Part shown: piece after piece, positions 9,650-60,733 of the stretch | How positions within the stretch are numbered: position 1 is the first letter of the stretch | Layout of the letters: each line of letters starts with the position of its first letter | Assembly (NCBI GenBank): GCA_946406115.1 | Contig: OX291558.1 | Span: 22,436,205 to 22,500,204 of the forward strand | DNA: 64,000 nt | From: Apoda limacodes | Taxonomy: Eukaryota > Arthropoda > Insecta > Lepidoptera > Limacodidae | Reading direction: 5' to 3' | The notes under the pieces: model-generated | What the model was told of the DNA's origin: nothing | Seen by the model: the letters and a program-made list of their open reading frames with translations, nothing else | The model's database searches: none | Made by a program: the position numbers and the translations under genes

Positions 9650-10221
9650 TTAAACAATCTTTACAGGATCAGCTAAAAATATTTCACATAGATTTTTCTT
9701 TTTAAACTCTTCTAGAAGATTACTATCTAGATATTTGTTTACAATGTTGGAAATTCTTAAATCCTGGGGTGCCAATGCATGATCAAATTCGAGGTCAAAT
9801 ATCCTGACCGACTTATTCGTATACTTCGACAAATTGTAATCATGTGGAAGCTTTTTAGCATTTGGATGAGGAATACCTTTCATTAAAACTATTTCTGAGT
9901 TGAGTTTTAAAGAGGGATTATATTCCTTAGACCATAGAATTCTTTTGTATGCAGTTTCTAAAAGCGATCTTTGGTATTCTTGGGAATAATTCACTAGTCC
10001 TCTTAATTTATGTACACAGAGGTGGACTTTTTTTGACCAGTTTTCTATCTTACTCAATTCTGCATTCAAACTATTGCTTTTATGTCCTGACATTAATTTA
10101 AACATGTGTTCCACTATTAAATTTTGAAGCTGTCCTTCTGTTAAATTACCAAGATATGCGTCAATGTGAATTCGTAGAGCATCAGGACTGCTGTCCAAGC
10201 AATAAAGCACTCCAAGATATC
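9650..10221 (-). CDS. FAS exon 38 (terminal): TE with Asp and His retained
   Basis: The last 189 codons open with YLGVLYCLDSSPDALRIHID, containing the catalytic Asp of the DGSP motif. Near the end DLEFDHALAPQDLRIS has the catalytic His (family GDHRTLLE). The stop TAA is at 9650-9652. The acceptor TTTTCAG completes the split Gly codon from exon 37. Confidence 0.95.
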
Positions 10222-13200
10222 CTGAAAATTGCAATCGCGTAAACTATGGTAACAGAAAATTATAAGTGTTTTGGTAAAGTTATGACGGAAAACAAAATAA
10301 TAATTCTTAAAGAAATTTCAGAAATGCAAGTTTTTGGTCAAAATTCAAGTTGGCGTGGTGAAAACATTAGGTTATTCTTTATAATTAGATTTAAAATCCA
10401 AGATGAGTTGGGTAAATATAACTTATGTATGTATCTCTGTAGATATAAAGCTGTGTTTCTGTATTAAACGGTTAGCAAATATGATGTTAAAACAAAAAAT
10501 ATTTATGACTACAAAATTTGTAATATTAGTGAATTCTGACCTCTTTTATACTACACTGGGCTGGCTTTAATCTCTATTTTAATGAGATACTTTGAAATTT
10601 ACTGTTTAAGACCAGATTACAGTGGCGCCAGTTGAATTATTGTTAGAGATGGGACCCTGAAATGGCTATTATGTATAAGATTACATTTAAAATTTTATTC
10701 CCAGACCCCCTAGAGAAGATTGCATTTTGGCAGTGGTGCTCGTAGAAAAGTTATAACCCGAACTCAAAGACAGGATGCAGATATGTATTGGTAAGATAAC
10801 ATGAAATTATTCTGCTTTATTTAGTGAGGTCACAGACCTACCGATTCTGTTATGTGCTACTGGAACAGAATAGAATGCGGATTCATAGTACCCCACACGC
10901 CGGGTGACGGGTTTTCTTAATTCGCGTTCAGCCATAATTTAGTGCTTGCCGAGAGACGTAGACAGACAGAGGTATACTATTATAAATCGTAAATCGTAAA
11001 AAAGCGTTATAAATCGTAAATCGTAAACCAAAAATACGGAAACCTTCCAACAAGCAAAATAAGGTTCTCAATCGATTTCGCCATTTTTTGCACTTCTGCA
11101 ACGACCACTCGCAAGATGTGTTTAAGCGCACAGTTGCACGCACACTGAAAGAATTCGCCTGCGTGCCGGGTAGTAACTAGTAACGTACTGATCGGCGATG
11201 GCGGCAGGTTACTTGCTTACCGGACTTTCTTGCCGATTGGGTTGGCAGGTATTTGACGTGTGATACGTTTTGTATTGCATTCTAGCCTCCCGATTTCAAT
11301 TATTTTCTGTTCTGTTCTAGCACATGAAGTGAGATTACAACGTTCCTACGATAGCTACTGCTAAAATGCATACTCGTCTAGGTGGTCTAGACACTTAAAG
11401 CAGTAAGTTCTTTGAATAGGGACAAAAATCAGCGGTCAAGGTAACTTTAGCTGATCCAGTCTACAAGTATTATAGAGATTAGTGTGAAGATGGGTAACAT
11501 TTGGAAATGATAAAAATAAACAGAACCTTCTTTTTCAAGCATCGCTGCCACTTCTAATGCGACGTTAACTCCAAACGAATAACCCAAGAGATAAAATTTA
11601 TGCTTTACTTCAAATCTCTTTTTCATTATCTAGAAGGATAAAAGTAAGGTACCTATTAACATTTTTACTGAAATCAAAATGTATCTATAACATTAAAATT
11701 ATTTAATTCACTGCTTTGAGTTTTAAAAATTTTTATATTTTACAAAATATTTTGTGATTTTATTAAATAAATAGAAATGTGTAAAAAAATATATGTCTTT
11801 TAAAGCAGCAATAATTCTGTATAGACCTATATAGCGTTCTCCTAATCGGCTGTAACTATCTTTCTGGTGATGAATAATCGACATATGTAAGTAGTTCGAT
11901 TTAGTTGTATTGACTCCTAGGTTATGATTTGTTAAACTTTCTGCTTGCTTATATTATTTGTTTATTGATCTCTAGTAATGTCAAGTTTTGGATTGGTTAT
12001 GCACCCAAATATTTACGAAATTATTAAAATAGTTGTCTCAAATTAGCCTTTAATGCATAGTCAATATGTTATTGCAGATATTGTGGAGCTATCTGCTGCT
12101 GGACCTAAGCAATGTTATGAATGGAATAATAAATCTAATACCTTTAAACGAGCAATTCTTGTATATATGTATATATATATCTCGGGAACGGCTCCAACGA
12201 TTATTATGAAATTTAGTATGCAGGGGGTTTCGGGGACGATAAATCGATCTAGCTAGGTTTCATTTTTAGAAAACGTCGTTTTATCCGTGTTTTAAGGCAG
12301 TGATAGTAATAAGCAACATAAAAGCTATTTGACAATTTAGATGGCGTTATTATGCAACGCTTAAGCTACTTGACAATAGATGGCGTTGTATAAAAAAACG
12401 AGCAACGCTTGGTCCTCCAGGTACTTATACTAATACATGCACTCTATATCAAGCCTTTAAGATACAATATTATCTGTATCGTTTTATAAACACTATACAC
12501 ACTGCCTTTTGGTCTCTTGAATAGTTGGTTTTTATTTTTAAGTACCTAACTGGACACTTTGAGGCCACATTTTTGGCAAATTGTTGTAAAGACAAAGGAA
12601 TCATTTCAAAAGAAAATATTAAACAAAAACCTATAGCGCTGTTTGGATTTAATATACATTGAAATTTGTATGAAATATTCAGCATAAAATTTCAACAGTA
12701 AATAAGAACATCCTACCATAAATATATAATAAAAAATAGGTGGTGTTTAACAAGTATATCGGTTAACACTAATTTGGCACGAACTTTCGTAATACATTAA
12801 AATTATTAAATGTGTCTAAGAAAATTAAAATAGTTTTCTACCTTGAAAACGTTCTCAGCCATGTCTTGAATACTTTTTTCATTTAAGTTGGGAGGTAGTT
12901 GAAAGGTTATTGCCTGGACCTTTAGTCTTTCACATAGTATTCTAAACATTTGATGCTGACATTCGAAACCCGTTATTATCATCAAATGGGTAGTTTGATC
13001 CAAAATTTCTTCATTCTAAAGAAATTAACATAGGTATTAAGTTTTTGTCCCTACAGTGTTCAGTACATTTATTAGAACATAATTTAATGAGACCAATGGT
13101 GTCGTTAAGTCCTGTATTATTTTAATGTGACTTTTGGTCTTGTTAAGTACTTTATTATTTTTATGTGACTTTTGGTCTCTTTCAGTCCTGTATTATTTTA

Positions 13201-16200
13201 TTATGATTAATAGTCTTATTAGGTCCTGTATTATTTTAAGTTTAAGGGTCTCGTTAAGTCCTATAATATTTTAATGGGTTCTTTGTTATTGCCTGTACAG
13301 TGATTATCAGAAATCTTTTGTTTTCAATTAATTTGTTTCATAAAATTTTAGATTATCAATCGCAAACTGTTATCGGTAGAAACAGTTTCTTTTTTGTTTT
13401 TTGCACGCTAAATTACAAGTAAATGTTAAATTTTTAAGTTAACTTAATTTACCACCGCATTTAGGGTATCTCTATTGCTTATTATTTGTCTATACTAATA
13501 TCAAAAAGAGAAAAGATTTGTTTGTTTGTATTGAATAGGCTCCGAAACTACTGGACCGATTTGAAAAATTCTTTTACCATTAGAAGCCGACATTATCCCT
13601 AATAACATAGGCTACGGCGCTTTACCGCGGGAAAATGCTTCATTGCTACCGGAAAAACAGGTAATAGGACAACGGGCAGTAAGAATTATCCTTCCGTACA
13701 TTCCTAATTACTTAATTACGTAATTACTTCCTTTTTCACATAATTTCTAAACGGCTGAACCGATTGGGTTGAAATTTTATATGGGTATTTCGATGGTTTT
13801 CTGGATGATTTAAAAATACAATTGGACTCTGTATGTGGCGCTGCTGTTGGTATTTCAACTATTCAACGGCTTGACTGATTGGGTTGGAATTTTGTATGTG
13901 TATTTCCATGTTTTCACAGACACGAATGTATTATGCCATTAAAGAGGAAAGATGTGGTTGTTTGTTTTTTTTCTATAATTGAGGAGTTTCCGTAAGAACC
14001 TACGCCGATAACGAAATTTAGGGCGGGCGAAGCCGCTGGAAAAAGCTTAGTATAAAACTTTGTCATTGAGTATCGGAGAAAAGCTTATTTTGGACAGATA
14101 TTTTTGAGGTCTTACAATAAGAGTAAATTTTCAACTGGAAATCTTAAAAACACGAATTGGCATTGGTATTAGTATCGAATAGAAAAATCAAAATTCATTA
14201 ATACAAATGCTAAAACTGCACCAATTTCAAAAATATACAATAATTGTGAAGAGACTTCTAGTCAACAAAAGCAAATGTACTAAATTATTTTTCCCTCTAA
14301 TAGATTTACTTGCGCAAATTGGGAGTTTGTATGGCGGACGGCCCGTTTACCGTTTATCTATAAAACTTTTGTAATATTTCGTTATCAGTGGTTAGAAATA
14401 TAAAAAAATGTATACAGAAAAACTATCAAACGTAATTAATAAATTAGTTATAAATTTAAATGTAACATGAACCTCTGTTGGATTGTTAAGTTTTGTAGGC
14501 ATTGCGACGACTGGCTCGGTCCCCAAACATTCATTATCTTCTACAAATGTGTAAAATGCTCCTATGCCGCTATCAAAATTTGTTTTATTCACTGAAATGC
14601 TATGTTTCATATTTTTTAAACTGAAAACAAAATTCGGTTCATTAATAAAAAAAAAAAAATTAACTTAAAATCTCTTTTTCTATATTAAGAGGTCTGGTAG
14701 ATTTTAATTCAAGTAACTAAATTATTTATGTTTCTAATTATAATTGAAACATATATTTTTATATCAAAGATGACTAATACGTCTAGATACCGTGTTCAGG
14801 CACACAAAACGAGCCATCAACACTACATCATACGCAATCTGTGCGTCGACGCGAACTGTTCTCCCGCGTAAAGAAATAAAAATGACGATTTGTGCAACAA
14901 AATCGTGTAAAAACTATTTAAAAAAAAACAATTAATGAAAAAATATCACTTTTCACAAGCTATAACACTAATCTGCATGCTATATTTGAGGTACAAACTA
15001 AGTTTTCAAAATAATTATTCGCTAAACAAACAACAAATGTTTTTATGTCTGTGTTGCCAAGTCTGTAGGTACCTTTATTTCCCAAGTTTACTAAGGCGAG
15101 CAAACACTGAAAAGGTGAAGGTGAAAGGTGTCAGACAGGTTGATAAGACTGCGTTGGTAGATGAGTTAAAGTTTCTGAAGTGGGGAGGATTTTGTGTCAA
15201 CATAAATGGCAAGTACTTCACTCATCTTCAATTTGCCGACGTCATGATGGTCATGGCAGAATCGCTGGTAGACCTAGGCACGATGCTCGGAGACCTCAGC
15301 AAAGTCTCTCCACAGGTTGGCCTTAAAATTAATATGGATAAAACGAAGGTTATGTTTAATGTCCGTGTCGCGCCTAAACCGGTTGTTGTTGGGACTGCTA
15401 CTCTTGAAGTTGCTGACGCATACACATACCTAGGGCAAGTAGTCAAGTTAGGTAGGTCCGACTTTGAGAAAGAGGTTCAACATCTTTTCGTCCAAAATAC
15501 CTCAGTGCCTAAAGACAAAAGTCTATAATCAATGTGTATTGCCAGTGATAATTTATAGTACAGAAACGTGATCTCTTAGTGTTGACTTTTTAAATAAGCT
15601 TAAAATAATTTGTTAGCAATGCGCCACCTGATTCCGACGACGAAATATCTTTTTTTCTTCTAAACTGTATAATTGTGCAGTCCGTGTATTAAGTTTTTAT
15701 CACTTACCTTATAGCGCTAATAGTCAGGGGCAACGCGACGGAACTAGGAACCTTGGCATCCGTATGTGCTGTGTTATCCATGAGGGGGGCCTACTCTAAG
15801 GGAAGGAGACTTAATTTAAAACTTGGGAAACTGCTACAAAACAGACAAGACTTTCAAACTTGAAGTGTATCACTGTGGCGGTTCCTGGTACTAGTAATTC
15901 TCCGTGTAACTATTTCCAGAGGCATCCACACTGTTTAAGCTGTTCAAATCACTCTTCTAGCAAACTGTTTCCAACAAACTCGCGTTGATACCAACGAACT
16001 GAACGCGGGATTTAATTTGTACAGACTTTCCCGAAGTACTCCACAAAATTCAAAAGCGAGCAAGAAACCATTAACAACGCAATACGCTAGTGTCGCTTTC
16101 AACCTGCCGTAAAGACTGAACTAGAATATTCTCACAGCCGACGTGTGTCCCAGCGAGCCGCCATCAAGGTCAATGTCATACCAAGTAAATGACGGAACAA

Positions 16201-19200
16201 CGTTTGTCTTAACCAAGCAGTTTTAAGTTTACAATACTATTAAAACATTTTAGTTATTGAAATAGCTTTTTTGTTTTTGCATAAACCCGATAAGTCGACA
16301 CCCGTTGTTATAAAATATTTTCTAAAATGAAAATTAATGCAATAGATGTCTAAAAACAAGAAAAAACATTATCTGGATTAAATAATCTCGCATAAGGAAC
16401 CTATAAAAGTACTTAATTATTTATCAAAACTAGTGTTACTTGCCCATAAACTTTTATCATTGTTCTTCTTAAAACTAAATAAATCATACTTTACGGTTTT
16501 GACATACATTCTAAAATTAAGTTTCCATACGTTTTTTTATACTACTAAGGTGGAAAACAAGCTAACGGACCGCCTGATGGTAAGCGGTCACCGTAACCAA
16601 TGGACGCTTGCAACACTAGTAGTAGAATATAACTCGCGCGTTGCCGACTCTTCAAAAATCTAATAACTTCTTTCTTGAAGAACCCCATACTGTAGCCTTG
16701 GCAAAGAGCTCATTCCACAACCCAAGCGTACGCGGGAGGAAGTTTCTCTGAAATGGCAGTGTACGCAACCATTTTGTAGTTTTCTGTAGGTGAAACCGCG
16801 GGGTATTTTTTAATAAGCTAAGGATTTTTAAATGCAAAGTAGGCTTTTTTTTTTTTTAAATTGATATGTGCAGCACTAATTTCTTTGTCACATTATGAAC
16901 TTTCAGGGAAATTTTCTCAAATGTGCTTAGTGGGCATTATAGGCAATCCAAATAGTTAGTTGATGGCGGCGAAAAGTTCTTGAGTGGCAGCCACAGATTG
17001 AACGTGGGACGACCTTCTGCGAAGTCTATTGATGATCTGATTGTGGAGGCATATGGCAGGAGCCTACTTTTGGTAGTGACTTTTTTTCTGGTAAAAACGG
17101 CAATGACAAGGAATCATCCAATTGCAATATAGGTTTTAGGGTTTTACTAAATAAAATCGATAACTTAAATAATGAAAAAGTATATTCTTAACACTTTTGG
17201 CTGTTTTGATTTCATTTTGAGCATTTTTGTGTGAAACTATGTGATTTGTTGGACAAAAATTTGTCAATCAATACCAAACTAAATATACATAAAAAGCTAA
17301 CAGTTAGGCACTTAAGTTAAATATTCAATAAAACTAGGTAAGTATAGTATAAAAATAAAACTTGAGACTTACTCAGCTATGGTCATCTTGAGAATTTTCT
17401 TACTTGTATAACTAATGTTATGAAACTCTTTAATACTATTTCTTACTTCTTCCACCGTGCTTTCGTTAATTATAAAGTCATTTAATAAACGATTTTCGGA
17501 AATATCATCTATGTGTTTCAAACCTACAAAGGGAAAATAAAGTCGCATAACGTTAAACACCGTATTTTTTTTTATACAATTGAATTTTGCCGTAAACTTT
17601 ATCTTTTGATTAAAAAAATGTAAGGGCTCTGCGTTTTTGGTTTAATAAAATCCTATTAATTCTATTTATTGTGAATAAATTATTTTTCAATAAATTTTGT
17701 AAAATTGCCTTAAGTCCTTGTAAGGCCAGCTTCAAAAAATATTAAAAAAATAATGGCTAATCAGAATTTAATAAAACTAAAATCGCCGAGCACTGAATTT
17801 TAAGTTAAAACTGTGAAATCAATTTCGTATAAAATAATTCTACGGCGTTTTCCCCTTAATAAACGATTTTCGGAAATATCATCTATGCTTTTTAAATTTA
17901 TAAAAGAATCATAAAGATATCTTTATATGCTCTTCTTAATTCAATGTCAAAATACAAGAAAAAACAAAAACTTACCTAAAATCATCGAAATTTTCTTAAT
18001 AAAGTGGTTTTTCCTTGTGTTAGATTTAAGAACGAACGTATTAACATTGTTATATGGTAGTTTTAGGCACATTTCCAATGCCTCCAATACTGACAACATT
18101 TTTTGTGGCTTTATTTTTTGTCTAAAATCTTTTTCTTTTCGGTTATCATTAAACTGCAACACAAAAACATTTCGTCACATAAAAAAAAAATATTACCTTT
18201 GCATTCACACTTGTAATTATGAAAAATAGTTTTCACTAGAGACTATAAATTCAGGTTCTTTATAAAGGAAGTTACTAAGTCAAAGTGGGTATTAGTTATT
18301 ATTACTAGCATCTATACGCTAACGTTATTACACAACACCAAAAACTAACATAAAATATACCTTGTCTAAACAGTCCACGCGAAAATACAAAACGGGTAGA
18401 CCTGCTTCTTTCCGAGCTTCACAAACCTTCTCTGACGCCGAAGCTGCAAAGGCTTCGCTAAGGTTTTTTGGTGAATTTGTTACGACAACAAATTCTCTGT
18501 AATTAATAGATGACTAATTAAAACTTATAAAAGTAAAATAGTAAATAAGAATAACACCATAAAGCTTGAACTAAATTCCTTACCGTAGTTCAGGACAAAC
18601 TTTTCTAGATATTAAATCTAAATTTGCGAGATTCAAAGTAAGCTTATTGAATATTGAAGCAATGTCATGTCCTTTGTCAGTTTTTGTTGTTAATATTGAG
18701 TTCAAAGTTTGAACGAGGTAAATTCCTTGTATTGCTCCTAGCAATGCAGTCTCTTGAAGTACGTCAGCAAAATCTTTTACGGTATCCAAACTTTTAAATA
18801 TAAATTTCAAACATGTACCATTGTTTTTCCACGCCCTGCAATAAGTAACTATGTTTTAAGTAATAATTATTAATATATAATTAATATAATAATAATTATG
18901 TTTGATTATTGAAAACGTGTTACTTTTATGGATATAGAACACACTTTGGTTTTGCTGAAAAAAAATCGTTTTTTTGTTGAAGATTTTTCGTTTAATTTAT
19001 TTTTAAATTTAAAAAACATTTGTAAAAAAATTAGTATGGGTTGAACCCTTATGTTAGTGCAAAACACTCGTACATAAGTTTATTAGTTCAAAAGGATAAT
19101 TTAACCGGATCTGCAAAGTGTGAACATGTCAGGATACAAATAGAACTACAAATAATACAAAGTTTAATCATTGCTGGTTCTTGACTCATTATAATGAGGA

Positions 19201-22200
19201 TCAGGCAGTTTATTTAATCCATACTAATATTATGAATGCGAAAGTAACCTGACTGTCTGTCTGTTTGGCACGGAGACAGTTCGAATTTGGGGAAAGGACG
19301 TAGGCTACTTTAAAACGTCTTTTTGCAGGATTACACTATCCTACTTCCTATACTATTAATATTATAAATGTGAAAGTTGTTACTGAATCACCCTGCAACG
19401 GAGCATCCCATCGAGCTGAAATTTGGTACACAGATAATTGAATCGACAACATAGGTTACTTTTTGTCCCGAAAATTGAAAAAGTTCTTGTCATAGCAATA
19501 TTTTGGATTTAATCAAGGCGTTGCCTTAGAAATACCACGCTGTTAACCAAATTTAGGGCGGACGAAGCCGCGGGCAAATGCTCGTTATGATAAAAAAGAC
19601 ATCCAGCCTTACGTGAACTACTGCTGCTATATAAGTACTTGACTTGACGCTTATGACTCGGTTTAAAGACGATCTGTGGGAAAAGCGGTCTGAGAAGAGA
19701 CTTTGCTTCCGCTCCCTCTGTTCTACTGCTTGCTGAATAAGTTGTGTTTTGAAAAATTATTCGATATTATGTCCCCGGCTACTTTCTACGCGCTCGATGA
19801 CACAAGGATAACAGCCTCACACCTTAGAACCTAAATAGTCATGCAGAGAGCTCCCTGTTGAATTGTGCCTTAGGGAATGAATTATGGTATTCTTCAATAA
19901 GGTAGTTATTAGATTTTGACAGGTTTGGTAACAAGACAGTCATGTTCTGAGTGATAGACAAGTGTCTATAGACGGCGGTTGAATTAAGCAGGTTGTATGC
20001 TTGTGTGCTACCTTAATGTTATTAAAAGAAAGTTTATAACACATACTTAGCTTTAATGTACACATATTGTTTATGTTCATCAGATGTCATGACTATAGTT
20101 AGATTTCTTATCCCTCGCTTTACCAGATGGTCTGCAAGCTCAATACCGATATCACTTTCATCACATAATACAATGTAGCTTCCTTTTGATGAGTAAGCAG
20201 TGCTGTAATTAATATTAACACACTCGTAAAAATACAATCAATTCTAATTAAATCATGATTAAAAAATTAAATAAAAAAGTTTAGCTTTTTGTTGTTTTTC
20301 ATTGCACACTTACATTTAAATTTAAACAGTCAGTCAAAAAAAATATATTCCAATAAGTCATTATTATTATATGGAATTTTTTTTTACCAACCAACCCACA
20401 AATATAAAAGAAATAACGTAGTACAATTCTACAAATTCAGAAAGTACGCGGTTTTATAAGAAGGGAGTGACTACAGTTCACATGGGTCACCAGTAGGCGA
20501 TCAATGCACCTGGATGGCGAAGAAAGCATCCATAGACTTATCTTTTACACAACCAAGGGGGAAAACAAGTCTCCGGTCTGCTTGCAGCAGCTACGGTGAC
20601 CATTTAACATCAGACAAACCATTTGTTTGTTTGCCACCTTGTTGGCATAAAATCATAAATAATAAGTTCATGACACTCAATTCACATACCTGGTAGTTAA
20701 AGTAAATTGACTCGCCGAATCTTTTATTTTTATTACAACTCTTCCTCTATGTTTACTGTTTGACACAAGTCTGAACGCTCTTGTAATATTTTCTGGTGAG
20801 TGCACTACACGACTCAGTGGTTTCACAATGCCTTTTGTAATTCCTTCGGTTATCATAAGTTGAATACACTGCAAATTTTAATTATGTGTTTGAAATTTGG
20901 CATAGGACTCCTTACTCTTTCATCATTTACAGGGGAAAAATGTTGATTACGAGTTTTCATTAAAATTTCGACATTTTGAAACAAAATCCGGCTTTTCGGC
21001 TTCTAGGATGAAAATTAAAATTGAAATGTTGCAATGATTTTGAAAAATATTCCTTTGGAGACAAAACAAGGGAAAAAAATGTATGAGAATTTCGATATTT
21101 TGGTAGGTAAACACTTAAGCAAATCAGTTTCTCTTTTTAAAAGTAATTTTTATGTTTGGTGAAAATGTATTTTTTTCTCTTAATATGTCCTACAAGGCTA
21201 AGTTTTCATGCACGGCCAATGAATTCAGCTGGTAGAGATTACTATTTAGCATGTAGCTCGCCATTGTACACTTTCGTTTACGCAGAGAGAATAAATAAAT
21301 AACATGGACTGGCCACAAAATTTTGAATCTATAAAATATTTTTTTAAAGTAACAGGACAGGTCACAGGACCCAGACTTAGGTTCAAAAGTGGAGAGTATG
21401 ACTCAGAGTAAGGTGGAGATTGTGACCCCTTAAGTGTAGTATGTAAACCAAAATAAGGTTCTAAAGTGGAAACTGTCACCAAGAATAAGGTTCTAAAGTG
21501 GAGACTTTGACCCCAAATAAGTTTTCTTAATTGGCGATTGTGGCCCAGAATAAGGTTTTAAAGTGAAGACTGTGACCCAGAATAAGGTTTCTAAAATGGA
21601 TACTGTGGAAAGTCGCTGGATGCGAGTGGCTCAGAGAAGGATAATAAATCTCAGAGTCTATAAATGAAACTTCCTTCCGGCATACTAATCTCCAATAGAA
21701 TTTTATTGTTATATCTTTCATTAATAACATTTTATTAAGAAAAACTTCTGATTTACCTTTCTTTCCTTAGTATTTCCTGGTTTAAAGATGTTGGAAAAAT
21801 CGATGTTTTTGTACGATCTTTCGCTAAATAGGTAAAACATTCCAAAATTTTTATTTTCGTAACTATCATGGCAATTGATATCCATGAAAAATCCTCTTGC
21901 TGCAACACACTGCATCGCTGCCTAAAATGTGTAATGAATTGTTGCATTAGCCGTTGTTTATAACTACTGAAGGAGCACAGGCCTCTCCTTGGGAAAGAAG
22001 GCTTAGAACCTAATGGTTCATAGTGGCCCAGTAGCTCACGTTGTTAAGCTAGTGGCCACTCTGCTATCGTGCTCTCCAAAGCATGGAGGAGTTCAAAAAA
22101 TATGCCAGTAGACAGTTACCCATTTAATGACAACACAGCTGACGTTACTTAATCTTGCATATCATTTCCGGACGACAAAATTTACTGGACTCCTCCTCCG

Positions 22201-40200: not shown

Positions 40201-40901
40201 TATTTCGAGTGATATGCTATATTTGAGCAAGGCACTTCTTTTGCAAAAACCCCTTGGTTAATAAGATCTGCAACAAAATCCTTCATAATATCAGTTGGTC
40301 CTGATATCGTCGATGATTCAAAGCTATTGTGGCAAGCTACTTCAATTCCTTGAGGGCAAAGTGGAAGAACCTGTAAAAATAAGCTTTCATAGCATTCCGT
40401 ACTAAAATCAATTTATTGGCATTCTACTAGTAACGGTTACAGCTCACATTGCTGGGGATTTGTAATCTAGGTACAGATTTACAATGATTCTTACAATGTA
40501 CAACGGCGCTCACTTTCCTGCTCAAGTTACGAGTATCATCCCTGCCTAGCCAAATTTGGTAAGATCTTGTCAATGCTTTTTTTTAAATATCTTTTACCAG
40601 GCTTTTCCCTACATATTTCAGTAGGTTTTAAAAATATTTCGTTGGTAAACCCTCCAACACAACTTCTACTGTAGTTAACCGGATTACCATTTTATGTTAA
40701 TTACTTTTCATATGAAGTACTATTTTTTAACTTCTCTTTGAGACGAGAAGTTGTGAAGTGAACATAATCCGAAAATTATGTTTTCTTTACGTTTGATGTC
40801 CCTTGGTTCAATGACATCTCAATCGATTCCTGTACTCCTGAAACTGAACTGCTTAGTTTTTCAGAAATATTGAACCAGTGGTTTATTTTTCTGAATGAAA
40901 T

Positions 40902-40937
<36 letters not shown>

Positions 40938-43900
40938 CCACTAAGGTGGCAAACAAGCTTACGGCCCGCCTGATGGTAAGCGGTCACCGTAGCCTATGGA
41001 CGCTTGCAACACCAGGGGTATCACTTGCGCGTTGCCGACCCTTCAGAAATCTAATAACTTCTTTCTTGAAGAACTCCATACTGTAGTCCTTGCAGAAAAC
41101 CTTGGCAGGGAGCTCATTCCACAACTTAAGCGTTCGCGGGAGGAAGTTTCTCTGAAACCGCACTGTACGCGACCATTTAGGTTCTAAAGTGTGAGAATGA
41201 ATTCCCTGCCGATGGCGAGCGGTGCGATGGTAGAAAGTAGCCGTGGGCATCATTTCGAACAATTCCTCAGAACACAACCCATTGTACAAGCGGTAGAACA
41301 CACACAGTGAGGCAAAGTCTCTCCTCAGACTTAAGGGCTCGATACCGCAAGTGAGTTTGGGATCGTCGACAATTCTCACAGCCCGTCGTTGAACCGAGTC
41401 AAAAGGGTCAAGCTGGTATCCGGGTGCACCTGCCCAGAGATGGCAGCAGTACTCCATATGGGGCCGAACTTGCGACTTGTAAAGTAACAACCTTTGCCCC
41501 GACGTGAAGTACTGCTTCGCTCTGTTGAGTACACCAAGTTTTTTGGACGCCAGCTTTACCTTATCTTGTAAATGATCTCGGAACTGAACATCGCTGGAGA
41601 TGTCGACACCAAGGATCCCAATGCTCTTGGAGATGGAGAGGGGAGTGTTCTGGAATTGTGGGACCACAGTGAATGGAGTTTTCTTAGCGGTGAACGCGCA
41701 CACTTGTGTCTTTGTAGGGTTGAATCGGACCAAGTTTACCCGTCCCCAGTCAGAGACCTGGGACAGTGTGGTCTCGATTTGAGACACAAGTTCTCCGCGG
41801 TTTTCCTCCACAAGGGAACGAGGGATGTTTGCACTTGCGGAACACCAGCATTAATGTCCATGCTATCAGAGCAACTACCGTCAACTACAGTTCGTATGCG
41901 TCTGCCGGACAAAAAGCTAGCCACCCATTTGCACAAACCCTCGGGCACTCCGTAAGATGGCAACTTCGATAGAAGACCGCGGTGCCAGACCCGATCGAAC
42001 GCCTTCGCTATGTCCAGGCTACATGCCAATGCCTCCCCCTGACTCTCAATGGCTAGTGCCCATCGGTGTGTGAGATACACTAGAAGGTCACCAGTCGAGC
42101 GACCGTGGCGAAAGCCATATTGACGGTCACTGACCAGATCGTGTACTTCTAGGTATCTTAGAAGCTGTGTGTTGATCACACGCTCCATCACCTTAGAGAG
42201 GAGAGAGGTAATAGCGATAGGCCTGTAATTCGATGGATCTGATCTATCGCCCTTTTTGGGCACCGGGTGCACATTCGCAGTCTTCCATGTAGACGGAAAT
42301 TGCCTAGTGTGGTAGGAAAGCGCGAAGAGGCGCGTGAGTACAGGACATAACTCAGGAGCACACTGCTTAAGCACCACTGCTGGTATACCGTCTGGCCCAC
42401 TCGACTTATGAACGTCTAGAGAAAGCAACGCCCGCCTGACCTCCCGCTGCGTTATGGAGATTTCCGGCATGGACTTACCGCACCACGGTATAGTAGGTGG
42501 TACAGCGCCTTCATCGTTCATATTCGAGTTCGAGGCAAAGAGACTGCCCAGTAGATCGGCTTTCTCTTTAGCACTATGGGCCAAGTCACCATCGGTCTTT
42601 CGCAGTGGTGGTAACGACGACTGGCAGAAGTTCCCTTCGGCAGCTTTGGCAAGCGACCAGAAAGCACGACTCCCAGAAGGATAGCTCGCAAGTCGCCCAC
42701 CTATTTTGCCGATGAATTGGAATTTTGCTCTGGCAGTTGCTTTCTTACTTTTCTCATTTACGTTCATATTTTTCTCACAACTACTTCTATTTCAATAAAA
42801 CTAACATACTAACTACTAACTTTTTAAACTACCGCGCTTTGTTTATATTATTTTTTATATTTATCGGGTCATACACGGGTAAAACACAACCTGGCCGAAA
42901 CGTTGAAAACCCTAAAGTTAAATGTTTTTTTGTTCGCGTGTAAGACCCGATAAATATAAAAATAAAACGAATATTTTTTTGTTTATTATTCCAATAATAA
43001 TGATGTACACTTACTTTACAATAAAACCATCTAACTAAAAAACTCAGTAGATTTGTGTGTGGATAGTAAATTCGTTTATAGTTATTTTATTTTTATTCTT
43101 TAAACTTATACAAATGTTTGATAAATCGATCGTATTTCATGTCTTAATCAAATTATTGTACGATGAATCATAATTATAAATAAATAAATAATACCTCACA
43201 AATATTTTTGGACATTACACAGTTACACACAGCGCCGTCTGGTTCCAAAATAAGCAAAGTTTGTGTGGTGGATACCAGACAACGGATACAAATACATATA
43301 TATTTCTTTTTATTTGTAGAAACATACATATTATACGTAGAAAACACCTCTTCCCAAGACAAACACAGATAATAAATTTTTATCTTGTGCGGGAATTGAT
43401 CCCACGCCCATCGATTCAGCAGTCGGGCAATAATAAAAATCTCAACATAAGATGGTAAAGATATTTTGAATTCAAAGTCATTGATTTTGGAAATAAATTT
43501 GCCTACTTAAAGTCACGAATTTTTTTAACAACTTGAAATTGAAAACTAAGGAATTACATTATAAGCAGCATTGCCTACACTTCAAAAGTTGCCGATCTCA
43601 TTGAATGGAACCGCCATTTTAAAAAAAATACCCTGCATCAATTTTTTAATAAGATTCTTTTGAAATTAAATATTTTTTTAAAAAAATTGGAAGGTATAAG
43701 AAAAACAAATATTTTTAATTAAATATTTACATATTATCATACAGCGTATTTCCAGATTTTGCCCTTCTTAGGTGATAAAATCATAATTTTATGAGTAAGT
43801 TATTCGCCATGTAATCATATATAGAATATATAGAAGAAGAATATATTATATAGCATATTTCAAGATCTATTTCCACAAAATCCATATATTTTCTGTAAGT

Positions 43901-46900
43901 TTAGTGGTTGATTTACAACAAATATTGAATAGGTATCTGGTCAAATTTTGAGCTTAACGTCCTTCACCTCGAATTTTTGTTTAATATTTATAATATTCAG
44001 CACTTACTTCAGCATAGCCAAGTCCGACTGCTGCCATTGATCCCTTAATGAATGGAGTCTGTACTGAAACCAAACCGCGACTGTACGCTGCTAAGATCAT
44101 CTCCTCAGCAGTGAAGCAGCCATCAGCGTAGGCACATCCCAGTTCACCCACACTGTGACCTATGGTAACAGATAACAAAGCATTAATATTAAAGGTAAAA
44201 GTTATATGGTTCTTAAACAGTTATATAAAATTCTCAAACATTTATATGGTTCTAAAAATAAGTCCACTAAATTATTTTTTTTAAGTGCTGTCCACTTTTG
44301 TTGGCCGCAGATGGCCTTATGCAACCCAAGAGCAACCACTCTTAAAAAAACTATATCTGCTAAAAATTACCACCGTTCCGGAAATCAAAGGCGTTCTAAA
44401 GAGAAGAAAAGGCAAGAAACTCTTTAGGTGTCACCTTTTATAATTTTAAAATTGATCTAGTCAAAGCACTTAGGTATTTTCGTATATGGTAATATTGCGC
44501 CTAAATGGACTGTAATCACCAACGTATTCTGTGTGTGTTCTGAGTAAGCTGACTTCGCGGGCGCGGAAAAGCGTTTCAGCCGCGGGCGTCGAGGTTATAT
44601 CGTCCTGAGATCGATCAATAATTGAGCCAAAAGGTCTACACTTAAGGCTGCACCCTACTTGAACGTACACTTTTCTGCTCAATTTAAAAATTCATTCCAC
44701 TGTCCTATTGCGTAAGTTTCGGGACATAATTTTTTCATGAAATATTAAATAACTATATAAAGCTAGAAAATTACTGTTTCAGAATTTTCGTATCTTATGT
44801 GATATAACTGTAATTAATTATTTTCCACTTTTTACGTTAAGATGTACGCCTATCTATAGTATATTTTTGCCACTGAAAAGTGAGCTCTATTAGCGATCAA
44901 CATTGTCGTCTTTGGCTTAACGCCCATAAAGCGAATGTATATGCCCGTTGGAGGCCCTCTTAATTGATCTACTGTTTGAAGCAAATTAAAATACCCTGTT
45001 TACAAAGCTATTTTACTAACCAATTATATTGTCAGGAATGATATCCATTTCAGTCAACACATCTGTCAAACCTATTTGTACCGCAGCGATGCCGACGAAT
45101 GAATGCAGAATATTGTCGTAAATATTTTTGTCGTGTGTTGTCAATATTTGAATAACATCAACCCCCTTTGGTGACAAAACTTTGTCGCATCTAATAAAAA
45201 AAAAAATATTTAATGGTTAACACAGTTTTGACAAAATTGGATACATGAATTGAAAATACAAATGTTTTAGTAAATACAAATGATTTTAGCTAGTAGTTTA
45301 GTTTAGGATATGGATTTGTTTAGAATTTTTGCTAATTGTGTACCAAAAAATAAAAAATATATAATTAGCACTGATTCTTAATAATTGCCCGGTATGTGTT
45401 TCATACGTAGTAAGAATTGAATAGGTTTTCAAGCAACTCGCGAGTAATGCCCCGGTGTTACCAGCGTTCATAAACCACGGTGACCGCTTCATATCAGGTG
45501 GACCGTAAGCTTGTTTGCCACTTTGGTGATATATAAAATAAAAATAAAAAATTAAAATAAATAAATAAAAAAGCAGTTTTAATATCAAATAAAATATTTT
45601 AGATAAATTTACAAAAAATATTAAAGGAGTTTTAACCTTTCAACAGCAGCTGCAAAGGTTGGTATACGCATAAGTTCTGCCCCCATTCCCGCCCATTGCG
45701 AGCCCATGCCGCTGTATACGAACCAGACTGGTCGAGCAACGCCAGGACAGTATTCAACATTTTTACTTATGCTAATGGTTTCTTTGTCTTCATTTATAGC
45801 TGCAAACAATTTATTTGCTAATGTATCATTGTGCGAACTTATGTCTACTTTTATTCTCTTTATGTAAACATGTTGGTGTTCAATAAAGTATTATCTATCT
45901 ATCTATATATAACGATGCTACAGACAGACAAAGGTTTAAAGCGCGTAAAATTTATTGTTGAAGGTTAAAAATTTAAGCTTGTAGCAAGTTGTCCCTAAAA
46001 TTTATTTAGATAATTATTGTATAAATTCTTAACACTAAAATTGTTGCATAATTTATATTTCTATGTTCTTTAATACCAAATTGTGGGTATTTAATATTTA
46101 TGAATTTTGATTTTTGAAATTACTTGTAGTACCTTGAACAGGAAGCGGAGTTATCATGAATATACAACCAGCTTTTACTGTTTGGTAAATAATTACCCGA
46201 CGTACTGTTACCAAAAAAATCCAGGCTTGAAACCCGTGGAAGTGTCTCACCAGGATTAGTAGAAACCTAAAATGGTCCCCTGTTTGTGTAACTAAAATAT
46301 ACGCATATGTCTGAAGCTATCGTAATCTATAGCATAACTTCGGCGAGAAAACTTGACGTGCCACGTGTTAAGTGGGAAAAGTTAAGAGTCACAGTCATTA
46401 TGTCTATGCTTTTGACTACCCGAGATATGTATATTGTTCCTGGATTATCGATAAGTATTTGAAGCAATAACTACATTGCCACCAGCGAGGACTGTCTTTG
46501 TATTGTGCATGTAAAATAGAAATATTTCAACGCCAGCTAAGTATAGGAAAAGGTACTTATTCCGTTGAGTTTTTCCGGAATAAAATGAAGATTATTGACG
46601 TAACTTAAATTTATTAGTGAATTTACATACATTGTGTTAGTGTTTACTTAATAGAAATCAATTTTTGGATCAGTATGTAATTGGTGTAACAAAAATTTAA
46701 ATTTAATTTAATAATTTCATTTTTTGTAATTTAACGGAAAATGGAAATTATCCTTATTTTGTGTAACATAAGTAATAATCAGTATAAATGCTCCATTGTG
46801 TAATTATGCCAATAGCTTAATATATTATATATCCATAATTAGTTGTGCTGACAATTATATTATTTTATATTAACATTGCTAACTAGCTCGAAAGCCTTAA

Positions 46901-52900: not shown

Positions 52901-55900
52901 TTAAACATTTTAGATATCCTAGAATTAAACTATACAAAGAATTTGAAGTTTTAAATATCAGGCAGCTATTTATAAAAACAGTTATACTTCGCCAACATTC
53001 TTGTCCAAAGCGCGATAATTTATCAGCTAGGATAAAGCATGAGGTGTATGAAATTCCAGCATGTAAAACTGTTTTTGCAAAAAGTTTCTCTTTTTTCCTG
53101 TCTCCATTTCTGTATAATCGTATTGGTAAAACTGTCTCTATTAAAGATTTGACCAGATACATCTATGGAAGTGTGCTGGATCGTTTTCTGAGTAACCTAC
53201 ATTATGAAAGGACGGAAGAGTTGTTAAAAATTATTCTTTAAATATCTAGATAGAAATAAATATATATGTGTATATATATGTATAAATAAAATAAAATATC
53301 TGTAATATATTTAAAAGTTATATTAAACTAATATATACAAATGCTCCTTACCTACGTTTCTTTCTCTCACATTTTGTATGTTTTATATTAATGCTTATAT
53401 TATGGTTCTTATTATACCTATCTTTGTATGTTTAATATTCATGTTTATAAAATAGTCATACCATAGATGTGTGATGATCAATATTATTTAATATCGAGGT
53501 AGATACTCTAAAAATTTACCGCAGACGTAAACATATAGGTATTGGGTTGGTACTTTTAGTAATAGTTATTGTATAACAGTAAAAATTATAATTAGGTTAG
53601 TACTTTTAGTAACAGTTATTGTATAACAGTAAAAATAATAATAAGTAGTATGTAAGTTTAAAAGACTAATATTTATAAATCTTTTTTGTTCGTGTATACT
53701 GTACTTGTTTACGCTTAACTCGTCGTTTCTTATCGCACGCACCTGTTGCGCCATAGAAAAAATGTAGCTTAACTATTGTTATTTTGTACCGAGAATCTTA
53801 CCTCGCCGTAACTCAGTTACTTAATATCCACCGTCAATAATCACTACAATTTAAATATGTAGATAAAAAGTATTGTTTGGTCTCACTCAAGATTTCAATT
53901 TCGCTAACATGTGTTCAGATCAAGGTTGAGATTGTACTTGCTTCCTACTATGTCTATCTCCTTTCATTAATGTGTAGGTAGGTACTTAGACTTAAAGACT
54001 TCTAGATAGATGTGTCTAAGTAGGTAGGTAGGTATATTGACTATAACATATGTATTATTTATTAAGGTCTGTATTTTTTCTGAAAATAAACTTATTCTTA
54101 TTAAGGTATACATGGGACCGAGCGCAAGAAATATCTACCCGTTTGGCGACTTTAAAAGGAAACTAAATTAAAGTTTGGAAAATCAGGTTAAAAATGTATG
54201 TGGTAATGAATTTCCTATCAAAGTTGAAAAAATTAAAATCAAGACGAAAAACGACTATTCGTCTTTCATTATAGGTGCTCCTGTAAGGAAATATCAGCAA
54301 TTCTGTTAACCAAAAAATTGGTCCGTAAATATAGAGTTTTGTGAGTGGGATGTGATTTCGTAAACCCAAAAAATCGGCGCATTTATATTCAGGAATTATA
54401 TCATCTTTTGCACACTTATTTGCAATCAGATAAACTGGTTGTAATGAGTCTATTCAAGATGCAAAAATAATACCACCGGGATGTAACATAATACGATATG
54501 ACCGATCGGATGGATGTAGGCAAGGTGGGTTTGTCTCGTGGCCACACCGCGGTTCGAGTTGCGACGCGTGAGATACCGAGTGACGTCACCATCGAACTGG
54601 TCTGTGCAATTGTTTACTAGCAAAAACGATTGTTATTTCTTTTATGCGTTGTGTTCATATTCTATTATAATATGTATTTGTGTTCCGTGCATGTGAACAA
54701 TTACTAAAATATTTTTTTTTGACTTTTTGTGGATTCACTCAGAGTAAGAGAATATCAAATTAAAATAATCAAAAATTAGATCTAGTACTGTGTAGGTCTG
54801 GAGGTGACGGTGCACCCTCGCTCGCTCTCACCAAGTGCGTCATTACATTTACAAATGTACTCGCATCTACTCGACTTGACTCTAATGATCATAATGATAT
54901 TCCTACAAATGGATGAAATTTCAAAAAAAGCCGATTTGTTTGCGATGTACTCATTCAATAGTGAGTATAGACTGGACACCGGTGTATAATTAAGATCTAA
55001 AAATGAGGTTTTTTTTATCAAACAATAAATAAAATTAAAAATGACTCTGTTCCGAGAAAAAACAATAAGTTTAGAACTGGCAGGTATATACTTCCAGAGT
55101 GGTATACTTCGGAAATAATTTGGGAAATAAAACTGGAATCAGAAGCTCACAAGTGATACAAAACCAGTAAATCAAAGAGCAATTATAAGTCCTTTTCTAA
55201 GGCTAGGAGTAGTGTTAAAAAAATATAGAAGTAGCTCAGAAACAGTACCAATGTCTAATACAAAATAATTTACTAAAAGATCCAAAATCCTTTTGGAATT
55301 ACGTTTAAAAGAGATAGTCGAAGTCTTGAAATAATATCTAATAGGAGGCAAGTGCTGACTGGAAAACAGTGTGTCGAGGAGTTTGTAAAATATTTCCAAT
55401 CGGTCTATGCCAAGGAACCAGTGGAGTTGAACGTGGATGTGGCGTTGGCTGCAGCGGGTGACGAGAATGGAGCGGCACGCGTTCACTTGAAACAACTCCA
55501 ACTAATTACTGCAACCACTTAACCGAAGAGATCAGAAGGGCCTGATCTTTAAGGATTGTCGCTAGACGTTAGCTCAACGGCTCCACTATATTTATAAGCA
55601 ATGTTTGAGGACAGCTGTGTTCCCAAATAGATGGAAAACCACCCGGGTCGTTTCAGTACCCAAAGGCAGTGTTAAGACTAAGGTGGATGAGTACAGACCG
55701 CTAGCAGTATTATCGACGCCGGCAAAAGTACTTGAATCTATCGTACATTAGAGCGTATATACGCAAGTAAGTGCACAATTCTCAGACTGTCAACATGGGT
55801 TTAGACCGATAAAAAGTACCACCAGTAATGTTCGCAGTTATATGAGTAGAATTTTACTAACATAAGACAGTGGAGAGCAGACTGACGCTGCCTATTCTGA

Positions 55901-58900
55901 TTTTACTTCAATCAATTCAATAATTACGAATTGCCCAAGGTCGTAGAACAACTTGTTTATTGCTTGCCGACAACTTGAAGTTGTACTTTGCCATACGAAA
56001 CTTTGAAGACTGTGATAAATAACAATAAACAAAGTTACAAAAATAAACAAAGAAGAAAATAATTTATTATATTTTAATACCTCGAAGTGTGTAATAATAT
56101 CATTTTCTAGAGCACGCGCTCGGGTGCAATTTGGTTGACAACACGCCGATAGTAAGAGTCACAGAAGTTTAGGACTTGGTCTGCTTAGATACGGAAATAA
56201 CATTCCGTGTCATATTATCAAAATTTGCAAGAAGACTTGTCGAAATTAAGGTTTCGTCCTCAGAGAGGCTAAGCATTTCACAAATATTCAACCCGTTATC
56301 TCCTTATATTGCGTTCGTTAGAAGTCAAATGGAATGTAACGCGGTCATTTGGTTTCCACATGAAACTAAATATCGTGTTATGTTATATGTATGATATCTT
56401 TTCATTCCTATTGATTATCAATGTAATAACTAATTACCATGAAAAGATAGTTTAATTACTTTGTTCTGAAAATATTTTGGTTATTGTTCACAACTCGTTG
56501 TCAATCAGGTCAGATTGCGATCTATGATCTTTATTAGGTTTTTGTATAGGAAGCAGTACGGAGTTTACCCATACTATCTCGTAATATATACAAGCCTTTT
56601 CATATTAGGAATGGTTGAATATAATCAACTTAAAGGTTGGAGAGAAGTGTCTCTTGTGTCTTACGTCTGTAGGTTGATAAGAGGTATGATACATGATCCG
56701 GAAATACTGAGACAAGTCAATATGTGCGTTCTAGACAGATATGTTTGGCGTCGCCGAAACTCGACAACCACAGCTACTGGATGTTCCGCGCGGGATAACC
56801 AATTTTTTGAACGAAGCACCGCTGACGCGCGCGCTTCTCACTTTAAACAACATGACTACATATCTGGACGTGTTCTGTGGCACCCAGAGTGAATCATCAT
56901 GAATAGCATTATATATTGTGTGTAATAGGATGTAAAAAATGTAATAAAAACATTATAATATATTATATGTATAAGAATTGCTGTTCTATCGCATAAAGTA
57001 AAAAAATCTATAAGTATTGTAAATAAATAAATAAAAAAAAGTATAAAAGGATTAAAGAATCTTTAAAATTCTACTAATATGAGATGGTGAAAGTGACCTT
57101 TCTATTTTCCCTTACCTTAGTGACAGCACAATTCCCTGAAGCTGATTCACTATTTCCCATGTTAGACTTGACACTACCGACTTGAATAGTCCTATTTTTG
57201 GCAAAAACTTGTCCAATAGCTTCTAGTTCATTACCATCGGCTTCAGCAATACCTATGTATTTATATTTAAAAAGTAAGATTATTTATTAAATTACAATCG
57301 TAAGAATCAACCTGCAAGTCAATACATTGAAGCTGTCTTTTGCAATCATGTATATATAAAATCTTAAATTTCTTACAACTGAATATGAAACAACAATTGA
57401 GATTGCAGTAAATATAAGAAATATTCAATTATCATCTGTGTTACAATACATAACATGATAAAGTGATTAATCATCACTGATGATTTATCAATCATTCTTA
57501 AAATAGGATTATGGGAATTATGCTAGTCTGGAATGTCACGTCTTTGTTATACAACTTTGTATTTTATAACGTTTTCATAATGTGTTACCAGATCCACATG
57601 CTTCAACAAATTCAACTTCATCAGGTGAGACATTTATATCGGAATAAAATCCATCCAGGAAGTTCTTTATATCTTCTACTTTCCGGATCGGAAGAAACTC
57701 ACAATCTGCTTTCAAACTATAACTTGATTTTGCATAGTAAACTTCGGCATATATTCTGTAAAATTATATTATAAAGCATAAAAATTCTTGGTGTATATTT
57801 CTAGTTATAACTACTAATGCGTATATCGCACATTATAATATGGTACATAAATTTTAATACCTTTTTGCATTCTTAGCTTTTTGCAAGAACAAAGCACTGA
57901 CAGTATCTGATCTCACGTAGCCATCGCCCTTCTTGTCAAAACACTTGGTCTTGCCATCCATGCATAAAAATCCGGCCCTTAACATTTCATTGATTAGATT
58001 AAAAATAATTTTAGAGATTTCTTGTTTTTTTTCAAACCGAAAATAAAATGATTTAAGAGATGAAAATATTATTGATTTATTAAAGAACCATTTTTGCACT
58101 CGACGAAATATACCTTTTCGTGTTGATAAATTATACCTTTTTGTGTTGATAAATTATACTTTTTCAAAATTTTGAGCTATGCACTAGTGCAATAAAACTA
58201 GTAATTTGATTATTATTATTTACCTGTACAAATTCAACACCACAGTTGGATGCAAGGCAATACAGCAACCCCCGACAATGGCTGAGTCACACTGTCCAGT
58301 ACTGATACTCTTAAACGCCTGTTCTAAGCAAGCTGTTGAACTAGCACAAGCCAAATCAAGTGAATACGAAGGACCTTTTGCGTCCAACCAGTATGATATA
58401 CGGTTAGCGAACATTGATTTACAACATCTGTAACAGGTTGAAAAGTCTTATAATTTTTTTAATACCAATGCAAAATCGATCGAAATCGTACACGTGTAAG
58501 ATAAACGAATACAGTTTATTCTGTCTTTGTTCCTAAGGAATAATTTATCGCCTGGGCGGAACCTTATAAATCTTTCTTACCCACGTCTTACTTTTGACTA
58601 ACCTTAATTATTTAGACCTTTCTTTCGGAAATATTGTCAAGAGGATAAAGGTTCTCCTCTGAAGTAAAATCAGAACTAGGTAATTAAAGTTGAAAAATAA
58701 AATGTATTGTTACATAAATCTATTCGCGTTATATTTAAAAGGCGTTTTATCTAAGGCAAAATTAAAAAGCATATCTATTCCTAAGGTTAAATACAGTCTA
58801 GTATAGGTACTATTTAAATTTAATGCATGTTTTATAGTGAGTAATAATTAGTAGTAGATAAGTCAGTACTTGTATAGTAAGCATTAGGGATAAAACTAAG

Positions 58901-60384
58901 ATATTTTAATACTGTCTTAGATTAATATAGGTACTTATATATATTAAAATTTTAATTTGTTGACTTAAACAAATTGACCAACTTTTTTGCTATACCACTA
59001 ATGGCAAACAAGCTAACGGTCCACCTAATGGTAACTTGTCACCGTAGCCTATAGACACTTGCAATACCAGACGCGTCACTCTCGCGTTGTTCATCTTTTA
59101 AAAATCTAACAACTTATTTCTTGAAGGAGGGAAGGAAGGAAGCTCATTACACAGTATTGCGATATGTTAAGCAGCAACCTTTGCCCCGAGATGAGGTACT
59201 TCTTCGCCCTGTTGTGTGCTCCAACCTTGTCTTCCAATTGGTCTCGAAACTGAACATCGCTGGAAATGTCAGCACCAAGGATCCTAATGCTGTCGTAGAT
59301 GGTAAGGGGTGTGTTCCGGAATTGTAGGGTTTCAGTGAATAGGGTTTCCTTAGCGGTGAATGCGCAAACTTGTGTCTTGGTAGGGTTAAATCGGACCAAG
59401 TGCTTCCATCCCCAATCAGAGACCTTGGACAGAGTGGTCTCAATTTTAGATACAAATTCTCCCCGTTTTTTCTTCACAACGGAATGTGGGATGTTTAACG
59501 TATACTAAGCATGTCAAAAACTGGCATCTGCATAGCAATGTATGTTGTTGATGGACAACATTTCATGACAATATTCAGTAGAAACAGCGCAGGACAGCAC
59601 AGAGCCTAACTACCGTCAACTTTGGTTCATATGCCTCTGCCGGACAAAAAGCTTGCTTTGTATAAAAAAATTTACGACGTGTGAGCATTTATAAAAGGAT
59701 ATCATAACAGGATTAAAGACAAAAATCATTACTCTTTTGGGGCCGGCAGCGCCACTTTTATTCGCTTGAGGCCCAGCGTTGTCCTAAGTCCGTTTCCTTG
59801 TACTTGCGCGAAAAGTACACTCACTCAGATATCCCGATGCCTTTACGTAGTACTAGCCCTAAAAGTACATTTACCCTTAAATCCCAAGTAAGTTTTGTTC
59901 TACGAGCCCGAAATCTACACTCACCCAGATATCCCAAGTCCGTTTCGTTGTACTTGCTCGAAAAGTACACTTACCCAGATATCCCAAGTCCATTTCGTTG
60001 TACTTGCTCGAAAAGTACACTCTTATCTGTATCTGAATAGGATGATCCAACAAATACGCCGACTTTTTTTCCACGAAATTGGATAGGATTGTATCCTAAA
60101 TAACAAATTGTTTATTTAATGCACAATCTTTAAATTTTATAAGAAGATCATATTAAAAAATACAAACATTTCTGCATTAAAGCGCTCATACTAAATATAA
60201 TGAAATATGTGTAATATTATAGACAATGAAATAAAAAAAATTAAATACCTACCTGAACAAATAAATCAAGTATTTGCATAGTTATTTAGTTAAGTTTCAA
60301 TAGCTAGCTTTATTATTCAGCAGCAGTAGTGAACATCGAAACACATATATGTACATACATATTTATCTACATTTACATACTACT

Positions 60385-60457
<73 letters not shown>

Positions 60458-60733: not shown

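Follow-up and report, generated by a model that had tools for sequence, protein, structure and literature searches.

The window (the whole stretch of 64,000 nucleotides that was analysed) carries on its minus strand, from 60733 to 9650, a FAS-like gene. We read it, with a probability of roughly 55%, as an old and still selected paralogue of a multi-intron insect FAS that would be unable to elongate a fatty acid, and in which MAT and TE would most likely be the working parts. Equivalent residue losses are found in paralogues of the same genome, and comparisons among the tandem copies show purifying selection. From the sequence we infer an expressed protein that would dimerise, would keep some enzyme activity and would work with a partner, and this pseudo-synthase probably does a different job from fatty acid building.

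Gene structure and catalytic residues

The exon model was built from lists of open frames and a splice search that scored GT/AG pairs that keep the frame. The original prediction of 38 exons and about 2,250 codons came close; the exact figures are 39 coding exons and 2292 codons in the window, making up a CDS of 6879 nt (2292 aa plus stop) with no internal stops, and all internal splice sites of this copy are GT-AG. The first coding exon (G000:C21:22504148-22503990, 159 nt, phase 0) begins with an ATG and lies outside the window, about 3.8 kb beyond it, with a counterpart in two tandem paralogues, B and C, which are described below. The gene is therefore complete, with a product of 2345 aa. 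Comparison with B and C led us to discard an earlier version of the exon 35/36 junction, in which exon 35 ended at 17404 and exon 36 began at 14540.

A rough concatenation of 2087 residues matched fatty acid synthase structures at E 1.7e-248 in a structure-database search, with weaker C-terminal parts matched separately. Colinear FAS structure matches and the Pfam order together give the domain order KS-MAT-DH-pseudoME/KR-ER-KR-ACP-TE in one chain, although DH, ER, KR and ACP have diverged too far to pass their Pfam cut-offs. The window protein was matched by the profiles for MAT (Acyl_transf_1, 1.5e-67), ketoacyl-synt (5e-48), Ketoacyl-synt_C (9e-20), the KS C-terminal extension KAsynt_C_assoc (2.1e-27) and FAS_pseudo-KR (1.3e-14; residues 1248-1335, extending into exon 24), and narrowly by the thioesterase profile (3.6e-6; 27.8 bits against a cut-off of 26.4). 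The KR profile fell under its cut-off (11.8 versus 22.6 bits), as did an ER-type match, and the PP-binding and dehydratase profiles gave no match to this protein at E up to 1.

We read the active sites along the chain in window coordinates, all on the minus strand. The residues named are those taken as catalytic in the family; reference letters came from structure-database alignments, except for the ACP reference, which is the usual family motif. The KS domain occupies exons 1-7 (60733-60541, 60095-59975, 58427-58224, 57977-57861, 57755-57589, 57252-57116 and 51433-51230), as placed by the splice model and Pfam, and all seven exons are also present in B and C. Its active-site Cys is kept (DLACASS, codon 58346..58348) and both His are replaced: the first by Cys (57596..57598, EACGSG for EAHGTG) and the second by Asn (57152..57154, SNMGN for SNMGH). 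The KS-to-MAT linker and the start of MAT follow in exons 8-9 (50782-50596 and 45799-45637; splice model and KAsynt_C_assoc). The rest of MAT and the post-MAT linker lie in exons 10-15 (45190-45021, 44159-44008, 40370-40187, 38785-38637, 37583-37402 and 36834-36715; Pfam and splice model). Here the Ser (44152..44154, GHSVGE), Arg (44079-44077, AYSRG) and His (40211-40209, AYHS) are all kept, and the same residues are found in B and C.

The DH domain (exons 16-19: 36618-36509, 36165-35975, 35891-35731 and 32386-32135; structure match and splice model) has Tyr at its His site (36521-36519, YFEGYVRNG), with the Asp (32301-32299) and Gln (32289-32287) of its second half retained (FLDGLFQ). It is followed by the pseudo-ME/pseudo-KR region in exons 20-23 (30787-30670, 30592-30335, 29753-29462 and 29248-29103; Pfam FAS_pseudo-KR and structure match). 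The ER domain, in exons 24-30 (28769-28623, 28552-28449, 25223-25073, 23819-23648, 22489-22377, 21921-21757 and 20868-20690; structure match and splice model), keeps the cofactor motif GGTGALG in the window copy. In the KR domain and KR-ACP linker (exons 31-34: 20202-20047, 18835-18584, 18496-18361 and 18153-17976; structure match and splice model), the cofactor loop GGLGGFG has become CDESDIG at 20165, and the SVS...Y active-site loop near 18459 is shortened and altered.

The splice model places an ACP remnant in exon 35 (17373..17523), where DSL is replaced by NES. The phosphopantetheine Ser appears lost with slight doubt, as a gapless alignment places Glu at its position and Ser one residue further on. 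A PROSITE-type ACP motif was absent from the window copy, B and C, and matched a human control. The ACP-TE linker and TE domain (exons 36-39: 14620-14473, 13015-12842, 11629-11527 and 10221-9650) were placed by a structure match at E 1.6e-5 and the Pfam thioesterase profile. TE keeps its Ser (11578-11576, GYSFG), Asp (10195-10193, LDSSP) and His (9781-9779, FDH), and these are likewise present in B and C.

These readings bear out the claim that KS, DH, KR and ACP lack key catalytic residues, subject to the doubt over the ACP Ser. As KS is without its decarboxylating His, DH without its His and KR without its site, and as no ACP is recognisable, the elongation cycle is predicted to be lost.

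Several further features were seen in the window. A partial duplicate of model exon 1 and its upstream flank (61019-60842, minus strand) adjoins the intact exon, with 87.6% identity over 178 nt, 22 mismatches and two in-frame stops in 37 codons; this decayed duplicate is a natural control for unselected sequence at the locus. The beginning of the ACP exon is partly duplicated in a short stretch (17856-17916, minus strand; 83.6% identity over 61 nt) just upstream of the real exon. On visual inspection, two long open frames of the minus strand, at 471-1376 and at 40984-42791, resemble the reverse transcriptase of non-LTR elements; the latter falls inside the intron that separates exons 11 and 12.

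FAS-like copies in the same genome

Contig C21 carries four FAS-like copies, the window copy and B, C and D, all on the same strand and within 22.44-22.88 Mb. All 39 exons were located in each of B and C by a splice search that imposed phase, not position. Acceptors stood at the predicted base for 37 of 39 exons in each copy, and donors for 32 of 38 in B and 34 of 38 in C; where the exon 11 donor is predicted, both copies have GC, not GT. Copy C is intact, with no internal stop. Copy B (G000:C21:22512387-22627555) has two frameshifting deletions in KS, one of 2 nt in exon 3 and one of 1 nt in exon 6, but stays open elsewhere; it may be recently dead, may reflect an assembly error or may give a KS-less product. 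If the lesions are taken at face value, members of the family do die. An isolated extra copy of a KR exon lies between B and C (G000:C21:22638656-22638787).

The losses recur in these paralogues, often with other replacements. At the first KS His site, C has Thr, B has Ala and D has Asn; at the second, C has Asn and D has His. C retains the KS Cys, but B has lost it (DSSINSS). In both B and C the DH His is Phe, the KR loop reads CDETD or CDESD and the ACP motif is gone. The MAT and TE residues and the ER cofactor motif had all been listed as remaining. For MAT and TE the residues hold in the window copy, B and C, but the ER cofactor motif is whole in the window copy alone of the three, B and C having GTSALG, with Ala at the aligned Lys. 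The GGTGALG of the window copy is thus not a family feature; ER is not to be counted as a kept activity, and its retention was rejected as a shared character. Copy D (locus L035, at G000:C21:22.869 Mb), with Asn at the first His and the second His kept or regained, groups with C in the KS tree.

The search was extended to the single genome as a whole (800 Mb in 31 contigs). Two canonical FASs, at C20:27.94 and C22:19.81 Mb, have the KS Cys and both His. At least 13 FAS-like copies have one or more KS His replaced, four on C21 and nine at C22:5.9-7.5 Mb; these counts are lower bounds because the search scores only the best candidates, exon by exon. The KS search gave 17 matches: one on C10, in a separate KS-like gene that was left uncounted, four in the canonical FASs and twelve in the two clusters, with copy B added separately. 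The first His site could be read in ten of the 13 copies (all but those at C22 7.16, 7.29 and 7.49) and was changed in every one. The second was read in eleven (all but B and C22 6.80) and was changed in ten, D being the copy that keeps His. In the C22 cluster, viewed over 5.9-7.8 Mb, the first site is Phe in all six copies read and the second is Phe, Tyr or Cys in the eight read. At C22:7.78 Mb there is one more copy, whose exon 8 match contains an in-frame TAG.

In a tree of KS-to-MAT exons, the His-less copies form one clade (support 100/99) adjoining the canonical C22:19.81 gene. The KS tree, in which six of 15 rows filled less than half of the columns and most C22 rows were short, supports the C21 group at 90/92 and the C22 group at 100/98; it took 12 of the 13 copies, C22:7.49 being omitted as its exon 6 equals that of 7.29.

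Other profiles were scored across the genome. PP-binding matched four genomic places, and among FAS genes only the canonical pair, with none in the C21 or C22 clusters. FAS-associated KR matches were found only at the two canonical FASs, among the 37 of 124 candidates scored. With the MAT profile, the exon bearing GHSxGE was matched in each of the four C21 copies and, in the C22 cluster, at eight places (E up to 0.01), several of these matches being under the Pfam cut-off and the Ser itself having been read in the window copy, B and C. Stops fell within the matched stretch in three of the KS-search cluster matches and in several MAT-profile matches, including three of the eight C22 GHSxGE-exon matches, and could be intron read-through or lesions. 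The thioesterase profile picked up C20 and copy C alone; as even the window copy escaped it, it is uninformative on TE loss elsewhere. A scan of viral contigs with the KS-MAT part gave five pattern matches and no relative.

Selection and possible roles

Selection was measured among paralogues of the same genome by Nei-Gojobori counts with a codon bootstrap, on the model of the window copy with the older 35/36 junction, which lacks 37 residues there. Overall dN/dS was 0.15 [0.13-0.17] for window-C, 0.17 [0.14-0.19] for window-B and 0.25 [0.22-0.28] for B-C. As dS is about 1.4 in comparisons with the window copy, near saturation, and 0.54 for B-C, the latter is the safer pair. On the C branch alone dN/dS was 0.16 for the whole gene, 0.07 for MAT and 0.14 for TE, and on the B branch it was 0.27 overall.

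By domain, B-C gave 0.14 for MAT, 0.20 for TE, 0.38 for DH, 0.39 for pseudo-ME/KR and 0.42 for KR. Across pairs, KS ranged from 0.06 to 0.17 and MAT from 0.11 to 0.15. ACP with its linker is near neutral in B-C (0.96 [0.47-2.08]). Together with the same or equivalent losses in the tandem paralogues, the overall values agree with the original prediction of a selected pseudo-FAS unable to elongate.

KS is among the most constrained parts though chemically dead (0.06 for window-C, 0.17 for B-C and 0.07 on the C branch), which suggests that its fold, probably as a dimer core, matters. MAT and TE retain their residues in each of the three copies read, and transfer and hydrolysis would therefore be the most likely remaining chemistry. 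In the mechanism that we favour, the conserved KS fold would keep the protein dimeric, paired with a second chain of its own kind, a sister copy or a canonical FAS subunit; MAT would take a malonyl or acyl group from CoA, and TE would hydrolyse acyl groups delivered from CoA or from the ACP of a partner. The role previously proposed, that of a malonyl/acyl transferase-hydrolase, a scaffold or a partner of another FAS, would fit the MAT and TE residues kept in the window copy, B and C. Several observations count against our main reading: the frameshifts of copy B, the near-saturation of synonymous sites in comparisons with the window copy, the constraint on ER in B and C despite their broken motif, the lack of the usual acceptor for MAT in a chain that appears to have no ACP, and the narrow margin by which the thioesterase profile clears its cut-off.

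It is possible, though we consider it rather doubtful, that the protein is a scaffold or regulatory partner with no chemistry of its own. Its KS core would then heterodimerise with a canonical FAS (C22:19.81 or C20) and alter the output, stability or location of that enzyme, the MAT and TE residues being kept for the fold. The constraint on the dead KS fits this proposal, as does that on ER, which is 0.20 in B-C with the motif absent from both copies. Constraint alone is thus no proof of chemistry, and MAT or TE activity is not readable from it. On the other side, pure scaffolding needs neither the Ser, Arg and His of MAT nor the Ser, Asp and His of TE, and all six are kept in three copies.

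We regard it as unlikely that the transferase-hydrolase and partner readings extend to the whole expanded class. The at least 13 copies that lack a KS His, against two canonical FASs, might then be catalytically dead subunits that act as KS-dimerised partners or as acyl-CoA transferase-hydrolases; rather than making fatty acids, they would pair with an active FAS and re-programme lipid, wax or pheromone synthesis.

That the gene is a pseudogene, its function lost and its sequence drifting, seems to us quite improbable, even though many catalytic residues are gone, copy B is frameshifted, the ACP codons approach neutrality and the C22:7.78 Mb match holds a stop. From the nonsense fraction of the gene, drift would be expected to have introduced some 261 nonsense changes into each lineage after the window copy and C separated, and 99 after B and C did. 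None is observed in the window copy or C, and none in B outside its two lesions. The frame has therefore stayed open, with correct phases, beyond what drift would allow, as had been claimed. This absence, the low dN/dS (0.15-0.25) and the conserved splice sites argue that the gene is under selection despite the frameshifts in B. The window copy alone may have died very recently.

The retained KS Cys raises another route to function, that of an acyl-transfer KS. The KS0 domains of bacterial assembly lines lack the condensing His. The same combination of a kept Cys and a lost condensing His is found in the window copy and C, and not in B. By analogy with these domains, which are described as non-elongating transacylases (PMC8456789), the Cys might load acyl groups without condensation and the protein might hand them to a partner. 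Such loading would be possible in the window copy and C but not in B, where the Cys is lost, and the chain appears to offer no ACP; as an account of the gene it is very unlikely. An assembly or gene-model artefact, in which catalytic exons were missed or sequence errors mimic losses, is extremely improbable: the exon model is computational, but separate copies at separate loci have equivalent losses and matching splice sites, and the same method reads canonical residues in the two canonical FASs.

Relation to known systems

The main reading, of a selected paralogue that keeps MAT and TE, can be set beside four kinds of known protein. The window copy resembles the KS0 domains of trans-AT polyketide synthases in its KS fold and in a Cys without condensation; it differs in that KS0 domains are described as handing their acyl group on to the ACP within their own module (PMC8456789), and here no ACP is recognisable. 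With the canonical type I FASs of the same genome (C20:27.94 and C22:19.81 Mb) it shares domain order and overall length, and with C22:19.81 also intron positions at the first KS His site; these two differ from it in having both KS His beside the Cys, and in ACP and KR exons that can be recognised.

Expansions of FAS genes are on record for other moths, in Antheraea yamamai (PMC5774507) and in Busseola fusca, with 25 genes in three clusters (PMC6697066); for the latter a pheromone role has been suggested (PMC6697066). The genome analysed here is like these in holding many FAS-annotated genes. The two accounts, in the parts that bear on copy number, list genes by annotation, whereas here catalytic residues were read. 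It is easy to read the number of FAS copies in an insect as a measure of its capacity to make fatty acids or pheromones, and if most copies in a genome cannot elongate, such annotations need revision.

Another parallel is with the 'aberrant' insect FASs of cluster III. As described by Finck et al. 2016 (PMC5039406), in so far as the account of the cluster extends, these are without a PP (ACP) domain, have modified DH, ER, KR and TE, keep KS and MAT, and have undergone lineage-specific expansions in several orders, Lepidoptera among them. The same authors cite a Tribolium gene with a comparable domain structure, whose knock-down killed all larvae (PMC5039406). The window copy likewise has no PP domain, DH, ER and KR that are absent or under Pfam cut-offs, a TE barely above and KS and MAT over them, a likeness at the level of the published domain descriptions. 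The aberrant kind of FAS is thus already known at the level of domains and annotation. Unlike cluster III as described by domain presence (PMC5039406), the KS here is also dead, with both His replaced, and selection was measured by domain. In the open-access literature, as far as its text could be searched, no statement of KS His losses at residue level was found. Measured against that literature, this analysis adds the residue-level KS losses, the extent to which they recur among paralogues, and selection estimates for each domain. If our reading is right, a dead KS held about as tightly as MAT would offer a clear and testable case of the passage from an enzyme to a scaffold or transfer-hydrolysis protein.
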